From a virus, in the IMG/VR virus record IMGVR_UViG_3300011116_000561, positions 1-24,478 of that record: DNA of 24,478 nucleotides. One strand, given 5' to 3'. Under the pieces are notes generated by a model. It was not told where the DNA came from and made no database searches. It was given only the letters and a program-made list of their open reading frames with translations. Shown in pieces: positions 96 to 19,145 of this stretch. Numbering within the stretch: the first letter of the stretch is position 1; each line of letters opens with the position of its first letter. The position numbers were made by a program, and so were the translations under genes.

Positions 96-368
96 TCACT
101 TGTTGCTCTTCCTGATGTTACATGATCGGTGTGCTGCTGCTAGTGGCGACAGTGGGTTGCTCGGTATTATGTGATCGGCTGTGAATGGGTCGTCATCTCG
201 TGGGCCTTCGCCACAGATGTGACAGGTGGTGGCTGTCTCTCTGATGATCTGTGCTCGTCGTCTGTAGTCGTGATCGTAGAGTGAGTCGTGCTGTCTCTGG
301 CAGGTCTCGCATCTGGTGACTCGTGTGGTGAGTAGTCCACAGTTGATGCAGGGTCGTCTGATGCTCAT
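96..368 (-). CDS. HNH endonuclease
   Basis: This 90-residue protein is a small HNH nuclease. The N-terminal half carries CxxC pairs (CINC at 8-11, CETC at 20-23). The core follows: a CHIC knuckle at about 49-52, the ADHIIPSNP segment at about 64-72 holding the DH of the first HNH strand, and HRSCNIRKSNK at the C-terminus with the last H and N. The length is normal for stand-alone phage HNH proteins that assist terminase in DNA packaging or act as homing-type nucleases. Its ATG overlaps the stop of the ParB-methyltransferase gene as ATGA, so translation is probably coupled. It is the last complete gene before the left edge. The HNH family is clear; a packaging role is inferred. Confidence 0.88.
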   Translation of the reverse strand: MSIRRPCINCGLLTTRVTRCETCQRQHDSLYDHDYRRRAQIIRETATTCHICGEGPRDDDPFTADHIIPSNPLSPLAAAHRSCNIRKSNK

Positions 369-1702
369 GGTGTGCCCTGCCAGTCGTCTTTCATGTCGAT
401 GTCGCCACAGCGTAGGGTCGCTTGCTTGGGGTCGCCTTTGACAAAGATGAGCACATTCTGGTGCAGCTTCACGAGCTTCCTGCTGCTGCGCATATATGAG
501 CCTGCGACCATCGCACCTGTGCCGATCATGTTCACGAGTATCGCTTCGTTATATAGGTGCAGGCCAGCTGATAGAGCTGCGTCGATCGTCTGGCTGACAA
601 AGTTGTGGTAGTAGCCATGCTTGTCTCTGTAGTCACCGACGACGATGGCAGCGAATGAGTCGTCTCGTAGTAGTGCCACTGTGTCTCTGATGATCTGCCT
701 GTATGAGTCGATGAACTCGTCAGGTGTCATGGCTGATAGGTCTCGTGGGTCGTCGCTGTATCGTTCGAGACTTCCGTATGGTGGGCAGGTCAGTATGAAG
801 TCTGCCTGTATGTGGCCGAGTATGTCGCTGATGTTGGTGCTGTCACCTGTCACCCAGTTCGGCTGTGGGTGTGGGTCTGTGACGATCTGCTGTGCCTGTC
901 TGATGTTGGCGATGATCTGCTCTGATCGTAGGTCGATGCCATGATATGTGCGATCGAGTAGTGCTGTGACGATGCCACGCACTGAGCCACCTGCGAACGG
1001 GTCGATGACTGTGCCCTGTGGTGGTGCAAACCATCTGACTAGTAGCTCGGTGAGTACTGGGTCGAAGATCGATGTTCCGTTTGCTAGGCGTGAGTCTGCT
1101 GACAGTGTGCCATTGGCGATGAAGGTTTTGTTGCTGCGTGCCAGATCGTCGTCTCTGCCGATCTCTGACTCGATGCCTAGCTTCAGCCAGTTCTCTTTGC
1201 GTGTGCGCCAGTAGCCCTGTCGTGTGTCGAGTACTGAGAATGGTGGTACACCGAACTGGTCGGCCAGTGGTGTGCGCTCTTCCCACTCTTTAGTGATGTT
1301 GGTGATCAGCTCGTCGAGTGCGTCGCCATCGTAGAGCGTGCCTGTGAGACCGATGTCTGTCTGTGCGAGCTCTCGTAGTAGCTCTGACAGTGCACCATCG
1401 TCATAGGTGGCGAGATCGTTTGCTCGGTTATCGACTAGCAGTATGCGCAGTGCCTGCTCGTCATCACACTCGACATAGGTGGCAGCTACATGTGACCAGC
1501 CGAGTGATCTGGCTGCCTGATAGGTGTGGTTGCCTGCGAGTATGTGGCCTGTAGATCGCTGTACGACGATCGGCCTGTACTGGCCGTGTGCTTCGAGACT
1601 GGTGCAGATCGCACCGATGTCACCTTGTCTGATGTTCTTCGGGTGTGTGTACAGCTCTGTGAGTGGTACTGCTAGGTCGCTGATCTCTGGTCTGATGTTC
1701 AT
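365..1702 (-). CDS. ParB-like nuclease domain / DNA methyltransferase fusion
   Basis: This 445-residue protein joins two domains. Residues about 10-115 form a ParB/sulfiredoxin-type domain (PLTELYTHPKNIR at 13-25, then GHILAGNHTYQAA at 52-64). Residues about 205-425 form an N4-cytosine/N6-adenine methyltransferase: the AdoMet site DPFAGGS is at 234-240 and the catalytic CPPY is at 306-309, with a conserved HQNVLIFVKG block at 414-423. A linker containing FGVPPFSVLDTRQGYW (150-165) is characteristic of this actinophage fusion family. No cognate restriction enzyme lies beside it, so it probably methylates phage DNA for protection or regulation. The start ATG overlaps the upstream stop as ATGA. 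Target base and sequence cannot be read from the protein. Confidence 0.92.
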   Translation of the reverse strand: MNIRPEISDLAVPLTELYTHPKNIRQGDIGAICTSLEAHGQYRPIVVQRSTGHILAGNHTYQAARSLGWSHVAATYVECDDEQALRILLVDNRANDLATYDDGALSELLRELAQTDIGLTGTLYDGDALDELITNITKEWEERTPLADQFGVPPFSVLDTRQGYWRTRKENWLKLGIESEIGRDDDLARSNKTFIANGTLSADSRLANGTSIFDPVLTELLVRWFAPPQGTVIDPFAGGSVRGIVTALLDRTYHGIDLRSEQIIANIRQAQQIVTDPHPQPNWVTGDSTNISDILGHIQADFILTCPPYGSLERYSDDPRDLSAMTPDEFIDSYRQIIRDTVALLRDDSFAAIVVGDYRDKHGYYHNFVSQTIDAALSAGLHLYNEAILVNMIGTGAMVAGSYMRSSRKLVKLHQNVLIFVKGDPKQATLRCGDIDMKDDWQGTP

Positions 1703-2253
1703 GATTTGCTCGCTTCATTCTTGTGTTTGAGTGATCGTGCTAGTGCATCTGGCATGTCTAGGTAGATGGTGTCGTCTCGGTGATCAGGTGATGATGCGAG
1801 CTCTGATAGATAGGCAGCCTGTGTCTCACCGAACATGGTGACGAGTGACTGATGATGAGCTCTGTGCACTGGTATCGCACCATCAGCCTTGAAGCATGGC
1901 AGCAGTCGATATCGGTTGCGCACGATCAGAGTGTCACTCTTGTTTATAGTGAATGGTGAGATGATGCAGCCTGCAGGCTTGTCTGGTGAGCCATGCAGAT
2001 CACACATGTATGTCGTCACTGACTGAAATGGGCATCTTTTATTTACTGGTGCTACTCGACCAGTCGTATCATCGACCTGTGCACCATGTCTGCGCAGTGC
2101 TACTGCTTCGCTCGATGTGACTACCACAGCAATACCAGATGGGTCTGTGCTACTGCGACAGCAGCGTGCCTGACATACATCTTTGATGAACTCTGCAGTG
2201 CATGGGTGGAATAGCTGCTGCATCGCAGCGATGTTGATCTTCACTCTGGTCAT
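1699..2253 (-). CDS. Cysteine-rich protein, YkgJ-like metal-binding pattern
   Basis: This 184-residue protein has eight cysteines: C18, C27, C31, C32, C74, C84, C96 and C120. The CxxxCC cluster (27-32), the RCPF motif (73-76) and the later spaced cysteines resemble the YkgJ family of putative zinc- or iron-chelating proteins, but I cannot confirm membership. No catalytic motif is evident. The gene overlaps the GP88-family gene upstream and the ParB-methyltransferase gene downstream, both as ATGA, so the three are probably translated together. A metal- or Fe-S-dependent role in nucleotide or DNA modification is possible from context only. An alternative is a structural zinc protein. Confidence 0.65.
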   Translation of the reverse strand: MTRVKINIAAMQQLFHPCTAEFIKDVCQARCCRSSTDPSGIAVVVTSSEAVALRRHGAQVDDTTGRVAPVNKRCPFQSVTTYMCDLHGSPDKPAGCIISPFTINKSDTLIVRNRYRLLPCFKADGAIPVHRAHHQSLVTMFGETQAAYLSELASSPDHRDDTIYLDMPDALARSLKHKNEASKS

Positions 2254-3020
2254 CTGTCTGCCCTTCTGTCATCTAGCTCTGTCTGCATCTGACTGAATGT
2301 TCTGCCAGCTATGCGTCGGTTGAAATGTTTGATGTTGTTTGCTGGTATGCCGATGCGTGTAGTCGGCCATAGCACTGCGAGCAGATCAGATGCGTCTTGG
2401 CTCGAATATCCTGCGTCAGCGAGTGTCTGCTCATCTGGGAATACATCAGCGTGACGCACTGTGTCGTCGATCAGATGATCTTGTGTACCACCTGTCGATG
2501 CGAGCCATCTGAAGTTGTCAGGTATGTCTGATGCTGTCTGTAGCATCTCGATCTCTTTGGTGTAGGCATAGAACATGATCTGTGGTGTCTGTCGAGCGAT
2601 GTAGAGCCAGTCGTCGAGATACCAGTCTGCGAAGAAGTCACCAGAGTCATGTATGCGTATCGCAGGTGTTCCAGTCTCACACCAGTGTCTCAGCCAGTCA
2701 TCTGCGATCAGGTCACATGAGATCGGCAGTGATCGTGGTGGTGCAGGTCGAGTGAAGCGTGTCTGCTGTAGCTCAGTGATCATCATCTCTCGCCATGCCA
2801 GATGATCGTCGATCACCAGCTGCAGGTTTCGAGTGTGAGCTGCGAGCACATTAGAGAATAAGTATGTTCCGTTGCGTGCATAGCACACTGATGCACATAT
2901 ACCTGCTGATGGGCATGTGCGCAGTCGAGTGCCATCAGCGAGTGTCGCTGATAGTGCAGGTATCGACCAGTTCCAGATGCGATGTGGTCTGAGATCGTTA
3001 TTCTGTGTCAGTAGTGGCAT
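2250..3020 (-). CDS. GP88-family phage protein
   Basis: This 256-residue protein resembles the GP88 family (mycobacteriophage gene product 88), whose function is unknown to me. A cysteine cluster lies near the N-terminus (C36, C42, C46 in CPSAGICASVCYARNG). A conserved RIHDSGDFF block at 122-130 and the FYAYTKE segment at 150-156 follow. The arrangement, with a three-cysteine cluster and then a barrel-like alternation, is reminiscent of radical-SAM-like or Fe-S proteins, but the spacing is not the classical CxxxCxxC. The start is supported by AGGGGAAC eleven to four bases before the ATG. It overlaps the small CxxC gene upstream by 23 bases and the YkgJ-like gene downstream as ATGA. Confidence 0.75.
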   Translation of the reverse strand: MPLLTQNNDLRPHRIWNWSIPALSATLADGTRLRTCPSAGICASVCYARNGTYLFSNVLAAHTRNLQLVIDDHLAWREMMITELQQTRFTRPAPPRSLPISCDLIADDWLRHWCETGTPAIRIHDSGDFFADWYLDDWLYIARQTPQIMFYAYTKEIEMLQTASDIPDNFRWLASTGGTQDHLIDDTVRHADVFPDEQTLADAGYSSQDASDLLAVLWPTTRIGIPANNIKHFNRRIAGRTFSQMQTELDDRRADR

Positions 3021-3318: not shown

Positions 3319-3957
3319 TCACAGCTCGATTTCATGTTTGAGTTGCAGCGATGGCTGCATTCTGAGTTTATCTAGCATCGAGATCATGCGACCAGTGTTG
3401 TGATCAGGTGCAAAGGCGATGAAAGTACCATCTACGCTGTCGCAACCCCAGTCTGCAGCTATGCGCAGCCTGCGCAGACTATTCACTCGGCCCATATGCA
3501 CCCATTTATTTAGATGTTTGGCTGTATCTACGATGCGTCGAGCGTCATCTGAGAGCTTCCACTCAGTCGTACCACCGATGAAGACAGCATCTAGCTCATC
3601 GAATGGCACTGTGCTTGTAGATGCACCATTTTGCAGCACGAAAGCTGCCTTGAACCCACGATCATGTACTGCACCAGCCCACTGCTTCCATCTGACTAGA
3701 GTGCCTGCGTGATCAGCGACGATATCTGGCACAGTAGCAAATGCAGCTGATGCAGGGTCGTCATGGCCATCTATCCAGCTGAGCCATCGTGCTGCTGACC
3801 ATTTATTAGCGAAACACGCATTATCAGCTGCCCACTTCCACTCTGGTGATGGGCATGATCTCTGAGATAGTGGTGTCAGCATGAGACCGATGCCTGCTTG
3901 CAGCATATTTGATCTCTGCAGCTCACTCTGTGGCAGACAGCCACTGAGATACAGCAC
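3319..3957 (-). CDS. tRNA-guanine transglycosylase-like protein (putative DpdA-type base exchanger)
   Basis: This 212-residue protein reads as a compact transglycosylase barrel. Candidate active-site elements run in the order known for tRNA-guanine transglycosylases. WAADNACFA (42-50) matches the place of the DSGGF loop. VLQNG (107-111) corresponds to the strand that ends in QG. FIGGTTEW (126-133) corresponds to the GG loop. HMGRVNS (154-160) and GCDSVDGT (171-178) follow, with D176 aligning with the catalytic nucleophile. It is shorter than bacterial Tgt (about 370-390) and lacks the C-terminal four-cysteine zinc site. Phage relatives called DpdA insert 7-deazaguanines into DNA. The start overlaps the transporter gene by 35 bases, which supports a joint pathway. 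Catalytic activity is inferred. Confidence 0.72.
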   Translation of the reverse strand: MLYLSGCLPQSELQRSNMLQAGIGLMLTPLSQRSCPSPEWKWAADNACFANKWSAARWLSWIDGHDDPASAAFATVPDIVADHAGTLVRWKQWAGAVHDRGFKAAFVLQNGASTSTVPFDELDAVFIGGTTEWKLSDDARRIVDTAKHLNKWVHMGRVNSLRRLRIAADWGCDSVDGTFIAFAPDHNTGRMISMLDKLRMQPSLQLKHEIEL

Positions 3958-4456
3958 GCCAGCCCCTGAGTGAGAGTACTAGTAGAAGTGTCATCTCGAC
4001 TTTGCCGATGATCTGGCCTTGCCAGTATGTAATCGAGCCGAATGCGAGATATAGAAACACGAATGAGTCGATGACAGCACCGACGATGCCTGACATGACC
4101 ATCGCTAGATCAGCAGAGATGTCTCGTACTCTGACATACACAGCTAAATCTGCGAACTCAGACAGAGCGAAAGCACATGCAGATGCGACTGCTACAGCAG
4201 GATTTATCAGGAACGATAGAGCTACACCGATGACCATAGCGATCAGCACAGTCTGCTTACCTGCAGTCTGATGCAGTAGATCACGCAGCAAAAGAGCTAG
4301 ACCAATGATCAGCACGCCAGATGGTGCACTGAATCCGAAACCGACACCGATGGTATGTGGTGCACCATCAGCCATCTGCGTGCCGATATTCGCTATAAAC
4401 CAGTTTGCCAGTGGGATAGTCGCTAGGTATGCGCTGAATAGAAGTGTCTTTCTCAC
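3923..4456 (-). CDS. yhhQ: VUT/YhhQ-family queuosine-precursor transporter
   Basis: A 177-residue membrane protein with about six hydrophobic segments. Recognisable family blocks are FSAPSGVLIIGLALLLRD (42-59), FALSEFADLAVYVRVR (96-111), SGIVGAVIDSFVFLYLAFG (122-140) and GKVEMTLL (151-158). The charged residues in the second and third blocks fit substrate-binding positions of this family. YhhQ-type proteins import 7-deazaguanine queuosine precursors such as preQ0 and preQ1. The gene starts at GTG and overlaps the coiled-coil gene as GTGA. Its end overlaps the transglycosylase-like gene by 35 bases. Phage copies of this family have been found next to DNA-modification genes. No biosynthesis genes for the precursor are in the window, so the precursor would have to come from the host or the environment. 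Confidence 0.9.
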   Translation of the reverse strand: MRKTLLFSAYLATIPLANWFIANIGTQMADGAPHTIGVGFGFSAPSGVLIIGLALLLRDLLHQTAGKQTVLIAMVIGVALSFLINPAVAVASACAFALSEFADLAVYVRVRDISADLAMVMSGIVGAVIDSFVFLYLAFGSITYWQGQIIGKVEMTLLLVLSLRGWRAVSQWLSATE

Positions 4457-17440: not shown

Positions 17441-18256
17441 TCATACCTTCCATCTAATGTAAATGATTCCTGAGCCACCAGCACCTGCAGACGCAGGAAC
17501 GCCACTGCCACGAGCACCACCACCTGATGCTGTATTGGCTGCTGCACTAGTCGGCTGACTCGCACCTGAGCCACCAGTGCCACCTATACCACTTCCACCT
17601 GCGCCACCAGTCGTGCCACCACCACCACCACCAGCACCTTTGAACAAAGAAGAACCACCGATGAATGCACTTACATCGAAACCTGCACCACCTGCACCAC
17701 CTGTAGTGCCTGAGAAGTTCCCACCGACAGCAGTCGTGCCACCACCACCACCACCAGCATTACCAGCTGATGACGAGCCACCTTTATACCCCTGAACATT
17801 CGTAGCACCAGAGTCAGTACCGTTGCTACCACCTACCTGACCACCTAAGTTATTTACTGTCTGGGTCAAAAATATCTGCCCACCACCTGCTGCTACTGCG
17901 TCAGGAATAGCACCGATGCTAGACACATTCCCACTCGCATCAGATGCGCCACCTGCACCGACAGTCACAGTATATGACGCAGCTGCAAGATAGATAGTCT
18001 GTCTCAATATGCCACCTGAGCCACCACCACCACCATTTGCGTAGTTATAAGTGCCACCAGAGCCACCACCAAAAAGCAAAACATCAAAGAGACCAGCTGA
18101 TGTCGCTGTGAAGCTGCCTGTCGAAGTGATCGCCAGATACTGATATGCCTGACCACTGATCGTCACAGCAGTACCACCAGATGCTGTGCCATAAACATTT
18201 GCGAACGCTTGTACGGTCGTATATCCACTGACATACCCAAGATCACGCCTACTCAT
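17441..18256 (-). CDS. Glycine-rich tail-fibre-type protein, paralogue 2
   Basis: A 271-residue protein. The N-terminal part (about 1-60) has LGYVSGYTTVQAF and a beta strand region with SGLFDVLLFGGGSGG. A central poly-Gly body with Ala/Thr/Ser follows, and the end is SGIIYIRWKV. The same frame of motifs, start to finish, appears in the neighbouring gene, so they are paralogues. Glycine-rich domains like this form polyglycine sandwiches at the tips of phage tail fibres. It probably contacts the host surface. The gene starts one base after the stop of its paralogue. Confidence 0.8.
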   Translation of the reverse strand: MSRRDLGYVSGYTTVQAFANVYGTASGGTAVTISGQAYQYLAITSTGSFTATSAGLFDVLLFGGGSGGTYNYANGGGGGSGGILRQTIYLAAASYTVTVGAGGASDASGNVSSIGAIPDAVAAGGGQIFLTQTVNNLGGQVGGSNGTDSGATNVQGYKGGSSSAGNAGGGGGGTTAVGGNFSGTTGGAGGAGFDVSAFIGGSSLFKGAGGGGGGTTGGAGGSGIGGTGGSGASQPTSAAANTASGGGARGSGVPASAGAGGSGIIYIRWKV

Positions 18257-18257
18257 A

Positions 18258-19145
18258 TCAGACTCGCCATCTCACATATACGATTCCAGACCCACCATTA
18301 CCACCGTTGCGCACTGCTGTGCCATTGTCACCTGCGCCACCACCACCAGATGCAGTGTTCGCACCAGCAGCAGTACCGACTGCTGAACCTGTAGCACCTG
18401 CGCCACCGATCGAAGACCCACCAGCACCACCAGCACTCTGACCTGCACCACCACCACCACCTGCCTTCAGTAGTGATGAGCCACCAATAAAAGTATTTAC
18501 TTCTTGACCTGCACCACCTGCGCCACCAGTCGCACCTGCGCCATTACCACCAGCACCACCTGCACCACCACCACCACCAGCCGAACCGTTAGGGAAGTCG
18601 GTAGGTGCTGTACCACCAGCAAACCCTTGAAATGCAGAGCCACCAGCTCGTGTGCCATAGCGACCTGCACCACCACCACTACCACCACTCGAAGGAATGG
18701 AACGATCACCACCACCAGCAAATGAACCCCAACCACCACCGACAGCAGAGAGCATCGTGCCGACGGTAGATGATGTGCCACTAGTGCAGTCAGTTATGGC
18801 AGTTGCGCCACTTCCACCTGCGCCGACTGTGATGGTCTGACTTCCACTCAGATAGATCGTTGACTGCTGTACACCACCTGCACCACCACCACCACAATAG
18901 TAAGTCGATGCCGACACTGATATGACACCACCTGCGCCACCACCACCGAAGGCCAACACATCAAATAAACCACTGGTCAAAACGGTCAGCGTTCCAGTCG
19001 AAGTGAATGATGTGTAGTTGTAGTTGACACCACCGATAGTGACAGCGATGACACCAGTGCCACCAGTAGCAGAACCATAGCTGCTCAGGTTGAAAGACTG
19101 TATAGCGTTGCCACTTACATAACCGAGAGTTCCACGACTACCCAT
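18258..19145 (-). CDS. Glycine-rich tail-fibre-type protein, paralogue 1
   Basis: A 295-residue protein with the layout MGSRGTLGYVSGNAIQSF, a strand region with SGLFDVLAFGGGGAGG, a long glycine-rich body, and the end SGIVYVRWRV. The N-terminus, the SGLFDVL block and the C-terminal IRW/VRW strand match its neighbour, while the Gly-rich middle differs. The two are a tandem duplication that has diverged in the likely receptor-contact part. It follows the 120-residue gene by three bases. A tail-tip adhesin role is inferred from glycine-rich fibre proteins. Confidence 0.8.
   Translation of the reverse strand: MGSRGTLGYVSGNAIQSFNLSSYGSATGGTGVIAVTIGGVNYNYTSFTSTGTLTVLTSGLFDVLAFGGGGAGGVISVSASTYYCGGGGAGGVQQSTIYLSGSQTITVGAGGSGATAITDCTSGTSSTVGTMLSAVGGGWGSFAGGGDRSIPSSGGSGGGAGRYGTRAGGSAFQGFAGGTAPTDFPNGSAGGGGGAGGAGGNGAGATGGAGGAGQEVNTFIGGSSLLKAGGGGGAGQSAGGAGGSSIGGAGATGSAVGTAAGANTASGGGGAGDNGTAVRNGGNGGSGIVYVRWRV

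Follow-up and report, generated by a model that had tools for sequence, protein, structure and literature searches.

Among the closest described relatives of the enzyme considered here are the canonical DpdA proteins of phages, for example those of Enterobacteria phage 9g, Escherichia phage CAjan and Arthrobacter phage Sonali (gp87). They are about 300 residues long, and their genes are linked in the genome to a supply of preQ0. The source of the base in phages that have DpdA but no precursor pathway is unsolved in published work (PMC6884629). Salvage of the base was voiced as an idea in 2019, and YhhQ was then said to be uncorrelated with any phage group (PMC6884629). Mycobacterium phage Orion has DpdA and no precursor pathway, and no 7-deazaguanine was found in its DNA (PMC6884629). 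Among the queuosine-precursor transporters (QPTR), the E. coli protein takes preQ1/preQ0 and the Chlamydia protein takes queuine; fusions of QPTR to bacterial TGT have been reported and serve tRNA salvage (PMC11130926).

The DNA analysed in this work, called the window below, is a 24,478-base IMG/VR fragment, and the whole phage genome may extend beyond it. No close DNA-level relatives of the window were found among phage records. Its tape-measure protein resembles the tape-measure proteins of actinophages. Two genes of the window form the pair described here (Table 1). An initial annotation, made from the sequence alone, had recognized a YhhQ-type transporter that overlaps a short protein by 35 bases, and both reading frames are indeed found in this arrangement. 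The overlap suggests translational coupling. In the window sequence an AGGGG is located 5 nt upstream of the GTG codon of the short enzyme, and the start site of the protein matches that of its relatives (VIYLSGC, VLYLSGC). An overlap of tens of bases is also present in most of the transporter-bearing relatives. The annotation had listed no precursor biosynthesis genes, and none for preQ0 synthesis were found within the 24,478-base fragment.

Table 1. Coordinates of the transporter and short-enzyme genes in the window and of the plasmid homologues
Feature	Position	Strand	Basis
Upstream gene, Vut_1/YhhQ (QPTR, COG1738)-type importer, 177 aa, GTG start	3923-4456	-	Pfam, TIGR00697, phrog_4899, AF2
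Downstream gene, putative short DpdA-like guanine transglycosylase, minimal beta/alpha barrel, 212 aa, GTG start	3319-3957	-	phrog_15826, AF2, motifs, hhalign
Overlap of both reading frames, 35 bases	3923-3957	-	ORF coordinates
Codon of D45 in WAADNACF	3823-3825	-	Counterpart of the aspartate in TGT TDSGGF; identical in 51/51 relatives
Codon of D176 in GCDSVDGT, candidate nucleophile	3430-3432	-	Counterpart of the second D in TGT GvDMFDC; 51/51
Plasmid homologues, Pseudomonas and Burkholderia	L452 5605-6468; L453 5635-6471; L454 4626-5504		HMM and motifs

The fold class of the short enzyme, the order and invariance of its motifs and its specific kinship to phage DpdA could be established by computation. 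The protein belongs to phrog_15826 (E 6.9e-56) and has no match in Pfam or NCBIfam. No relative was found when the sequences of solved structures were searched, either with the protein itself or with two alignments. A structure prediction had been proposed as a check of the initial annotation, and the AF2 model, calculated with 51 sequences, is a bare and complete eight-strand barrel with a pLDDT of 95.1, a fold compatible with a transglycosylase. TGT is among its best matches in the PDB: entries of the Zymomonas TGT make up the majority of the Foldseek matches below 1e-4. The top viral matches include queuine ribosyltransferases/DpdAs. Foldseek also ranks ribulose-phosphate epimerase (RPE) and thiazole synthase (ThiG) beside TGT, and VIA-align gives TGT a Z of 14.6 vs 15.9 for pyruvate kinase. 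Because other TIM barrels score like TGT, the fold alone proves little, and it is a necessary but not a sufficient attribute of a DpdA. The closest structural match is held by a 499-residue protein of an uncultured marine virus (BFVD A0A0F7L9Z1; 26% identity, TMq 0.79), the length of which suggests that fusions of the short enzyme to an extra domain may exist.

The motifs are more telling. The TGTs retrieved in this work contain TDSGGF, FDEC, IvQGG, aiGGLSVGE, LMGVG and GvDMFDC, and the short family contains AADNGCF, PDVVGD, AQDG, FIGGTTEWK, HMGRVN and GCDSVDGT in the same order, so that the TGT-like order of motifs that had been read from the window protein is borne out against real TGTs. Twelve residues (D45, D78, Q109, G128, G129, K134, H154, G156, R157, N159, D176 and G177) are identical in 51 out of 51 sequences. 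They follow strands 3 to 8 and are placed at the ends of strands b3-b8 in the AF2 model. The candidate nucleophile D176 does lie in GCDSVDGT, as the initial annotation had it, and D45 lies in AADN. The canonical DpdA motifs DSGAF, LDxIGD, GG, HGFG and SVDST likewise occur in the same order as DNGCF, PDVVGD, GG, HMGRVN and SVDGT of the short family, and the fold class is the same. The short enzyme, however, is only about 205 residues long, and its WK, GRVN and DGT signatures are its own and set it apart from canonical DpdA.

Profile comparison points to the same relationship. The short family aligns with 79 canonical phage DpdAs over 117 columns with a hhalign probability of 94.6%; with the full set of 178 sequences the probability is 95.1%, and 96.5% in the global mode. 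In the global alignment the SVDGT of the short family pairs with the canonical SVDST, and D176 is paired with the invariant aspartate. None of the controls (RPE, GDPD, pyruvate kinase, QueC, QueE, FolE and the transporter) exceeds 10%. These profile results indicate that the short enzyme is specifically akin to canonical phage DpdA and not to other barrels. A comparison with both Tgt and DpdA had been put forward as a check; the short family and cellular TGT match with a probability of 0.1-0.2%. Canonical phage DpdA also fails against cellular TGT (8.6%), and the failed match of the short family is therefore weak evidence. Likeness to the bacterial and archaeal TGT (PF01702) is limited to the motif order and the Foldseek match: PF01702 gives no match in the window protein or among 51 family members, the C-terminal region is missing, and the CxCxxC zinc motif of the TGT consensus is absent from the 212-residue sequence, as had been noted at the outset.

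The transporter scores 38.3 bits with Pfam Vut_1 (PF02592; E 2.1e-9), above the cut-off of 27.2, and is assigned to phrog_4899 in PHROGs. Its best NCBIfam match is TIGR00697, 'queuosine precursor transporter', at 32.4 bits, below the cut-off of 50.95; another member of the same transporter family (locus L048) exceeds this cut-off with 52.6 bits. The AF2 model has a pLDDT of 94.4 and six predicted transmembrane helices, and eight residues (N18, R58, D59, S92, E100, D103, D130 and K152) are invariant across 37 relatives. A fold search with the model returned weak matches to ECF-type components, with E 0.25 or worse. The Vut_1 domain and the best NCBIfam match thus liken the window protein to YhhQ/QPTR (COG1738, TIGR00697), but it has 177 residues vs 221 positions in the E. 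coli-type model, and the phage transporter family falls mostly below the TIGR00697 equivalog cut-off; its substrate is a predicted one.

The short gene and Vut_1 are tightly coupled on the same strand, and in other lineages Vut_1 is replaced by preQ0-synthesis genes. In a first set of 66 non-redundant short-family loci, taken among the matches listed, a transporter was located within 500 bp in 50 and preQ0-synthesis genes in 8. Canonical DpdA loci found in the same way had synthesis genes in 73 of 79 cases and an adjacent transporter in 5 of 79. The clade of the window pairs the short enzyme with import, whereas canonical DpdA is paired with synthesis genes; genomic linkage to a supply of preQ0 is common to both. 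A second alignment query, drawn from another part of the family, was also run, and both scans were pooled for the locus counts, giving 117 non-redundant viral loci among the matches listed. Import genes were found in 47 of these loci, synthesis genes in 23, both in none and neither in 47; a gene for synthesis or uptake of preQ0 is therefore nearby in 70 of the 117 listed. The exclusion has a Fisher P of 1.7e-6, a value that is indicative because the loci are related. Of the 48 transporters detected, 47 are within 500 bp of the short gene, mostly overlapping it, and all 48 are on its strand. The synthesis genes that alternate with the transporter are QueC, QueD, QueE and FolE, often as overlapping genes. 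Import and synthesis replace each other at least nine times on a maximum-likelihood tree, which means that the pattern is not that of one inherited cassette. Repeated switching of this kind suggests that the enzyme is functionally tied to a supply of preQ0 or of a near derivative.

Flanks of 6 kb may miss genes, and whole records were therefore searched too. QueC and canonical DpdA are absent from all 19 transporter-bearing whole records, including three complete phage genomes. Together with the alternation of import and synthesis, this lends weight to the salvage logic of the initial annotation. Canonical DpdA is likewise missing from five records that have QueC and the short gene, which leaves the short protein as the sole transglycosylase candidate in them. 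Phages Sonali, phiG7 and R29Z contain the short gene together with a canonical DpdA-like gene and preQ0-synthesis genes. About 40% of the viral members (47 of the 117 loci among the matches listed) have neither a transporter nor a synthesis gene nearby and do not fit the pattern; some may use host preQ0, some another base, and some may be located on truncated contigs. The proposal that the transporter occurs only with hosts unable to make preQ0 was not supported: among the bacterial genomes that carry the short family, a strong QueC match was found in 6 of 17 with the pair vs 12 of 31 without it.

Of 80 canonical DpdA loci, 41 have a ParB-domain gene next to DpdA, whereas such a gene neighbours the short gene in 2 of 47 transporter loci, and a ParB-domain protein as a general partner of the short enzyme was accordingly rejected. 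In L010 and L016-L019 a fusion of ParB_N with an N6/N4 methyltransferase immediately adjoins the short gene, but this does not hold for the family at large. In the window, a fusion of ParB_N with an N6/N4 methyltransferase is encoded at 365-1702(-), 1.6 kb downstream of the pair.

The family is widespread. A tblastn search with the window protein found 24 phage records, 12 of them from Mycobacterium and 3 from Arthrobacter phages, and several of these relatives, in Arthrobacter and Mycobacterium phages, are already annotated as 'DpdA-like tRNA-guanine transglycosylase'. The locus search with the 212-residue protein alone as the query returned no related loci; an alignment query found at least 424 short-family relatives in IMG/VR, and a further 104 came from scanning bacterial genomes. 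The enzyme had initially been regarded as a possible divergent subfamily. Divergent it is, but the subfamily is a large one, with at least 424 IMG/VR stretches, and its 'DpdA-like' labels mean that this is no first sighting. The actinophage 'DpdA-like' proteins (Sonali gp81, Aoka gp40, StevieRay gp54, Bhagsy gp55 and ReqiPine5 gp03) belong to the same family, with 40-46% identity and the same length, and the short genes of ReqiPine5, Aoka and Bhagsy have Vut_1 just upstream, as in the window. Unlike these named copies, that of the window belongs to a phage that is uncultivated and without close relatives at the DNA level.

A short-family gene was not recognizable in the reference phages 9g, CAjan, nt-1, 7-11 and NCTC12673 or in halovirus HCTV-2. 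The short-family profile had no match up to E 1 in the genome of Vibrio phage nt-1, which has DpdA2; the DpdA subfamilies are so diverged that the short family may be akin to DpdA2 all the same. In Escherichia phage phiG7 (L007 5932-6216 and 6195-6524), and also in phage SHIN8, the short gene is found in two overlapping frames, in phiG7 between the clamp and DNA polymerase genes. The split in phiG7 is possibly a frameshift, either real or derived from sequencing. CAjan, a sister phage of phiG7, is without the short gene altogether. Guanine is replaced in Campylobacter phages such as CP220. The CP220 hypothetical protein CPT_0056 (L461 1351-2142) has a weak but specific match to the short-family profile (52%, vs about 1% for canonical DpdA and TGT) and contains the motifs LDN/DNS, PDALGD, VVQG, HLLGC and SLDTS, which make it a candidate transglycosylase. 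It differs from the short enzyme in its length of 258 residues and in its neighbours.

Relatives occur in 156 plasmid records, 117 of which are from Pseudomonas. Homologues of 278-292 residues that have all short-family motifs (HMM E 4e-28 to 3e-31) and are annotated as 'hypothetical protein' are found on large plasmids of Pseudomonas, some of about 400 kb, and on plasmids of Burkholderia. Genomes of Nocardia, Streptomyces and Nonomuraea (L187, L191, L202, L247 and similar) carry chromosomal or island copies of 230-310 residues with no transporter, and many of these genomes are without a strong QueC match. In Nonomuraea L247, the short gene comes after two ORFs recognized by eye, one PAPS-reductase-like and one cytosine-methyltransferase-like. 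The transporter and short-enzyme pair is present in the genomes of the potato-scab species Streptomyces turgidiscabies (L182) and S. stelliscabiei (L189).

The pair is probably a salvage-type 7-deazaguanine module, in which imported preQ0 or preQ1 is exchanged into phage DNA by a minimal guanine transglycosylase. The Vut_1 protein would import preQ0 or preQ1 that other microbes have released, and the short enzyme would then swap guanine in phage DNA for the imported base by double displacement. By motif equivalence, D176 would be the nucleophile and D45 the acid/base. Double displacement accords with the chemistry of TGT and DpdA. The modified DNA would be expected to resist host restriction enzymes, by analogy with the published DpdA phages. 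The negative result for Orion weighs against this reading, as do the viral members with neither kind of gene nearby and the failure of host QueC to follow transporter loss. Orion also shows that DpdA can stay inactive when no base is supplied, and the same could happen here in unsupplemented laboratory medium.

It is unlikely that the short enzyme instead places the imported base into tRNA, making preQ1- or preQ0-tRNA for queuosine-less hosts during infection. Queuosine salvage for tRNA is known to use a transporter placed beside or fused to a transglycosylase (PMC11130926), and cellular TGT is missing in 10 of the 12 searched bacterial genomes that carry the pair. DNA is nevertheless the favoured substrate in this analysis because the profile kin of the enzyme is phage DpdA and not TGT, because the zinc site and C-terminal region of TGT are missing, and because the enzyme is carried by phages and plasmids. 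Its recurrence in phages as the sole transglycosylase candidate beside preQ0 synthesis also speaks against tRNA. Action as a transglycosylase or glycosidase on free nucleosides, nucleotides or a base other than 7-deazaguanine, while the transporter brings in some other purine, is improbable. Such a role would agree with the varied specificity of Vut_1 members (PMC11130926) and with the bacterial members that have no visible source of preQ0, but the alternation with the frequently overlapping QueC, QueD, QueE and FolE ties the family to preQ0 specifically. That the protein is an unrelated TIM-barrel enzyme with a coincidental order of motifs is very improbable in spite of the structural ranks of RPE, ThiG and pyruvate kinase, since canonical DpdA matches by profile while the barrel controls fail, every motif residue is invariant and the gene is linked to those for 7-deazaguanine.

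With salvage into DNA as the preferred reading, a broader proposal can be made, tentatively and with some doubt: the family may be a distinct minimal (about 205 residues) subfamily of DNA-guanine transglycosylases that needs no ParB-type partner, uses a scavenged base in the transporter lineages, confers restriction resistance varying with the chemical surroundings, and is also employed by plasmids. Neither Pfam nor PHROGs gives the family a name, but it was in part labelled by phage annotators before this work. The new elements are the short subfamily as defined here, the exclusive alternation of import and synthesis, the independence of canonical DpdA and ParB neighbours and the presence on plasmids; part of the novelty of the short subfamily may already have been named in work on DpdA subfamilies (Cui 2023; 2024 review). 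Dozens of unrelated phages with no means of making the base share the transporter and short-enzyme pair. A short DpdA subfamily with import or synthesis but never both, and with at least nine switches between them, makes the salvage hypothesis testable in cultured phages. If the hypothesis is true, the DNA camouflage of many actinophages would depend on nutrients, and a barrel of such small size would be handy for writing modified guanines into DNA.

Several other genes of the window were observed. Just downstream of the pair, a GP88-family protein (PF17338) is encoded at 2250-3020(-) and overlaps a protein at 1699-2253(-), which has a weak CxxCxxCC metal-binding match. Two adjoining glycine-rich proteins of 271 and 295 residues, similar to each other, are encoded at 17441-19145(-). 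They start with MSRRDLGYVSG and MGSRGTLGYVSG, and are probably virion tip or fibre proteins.
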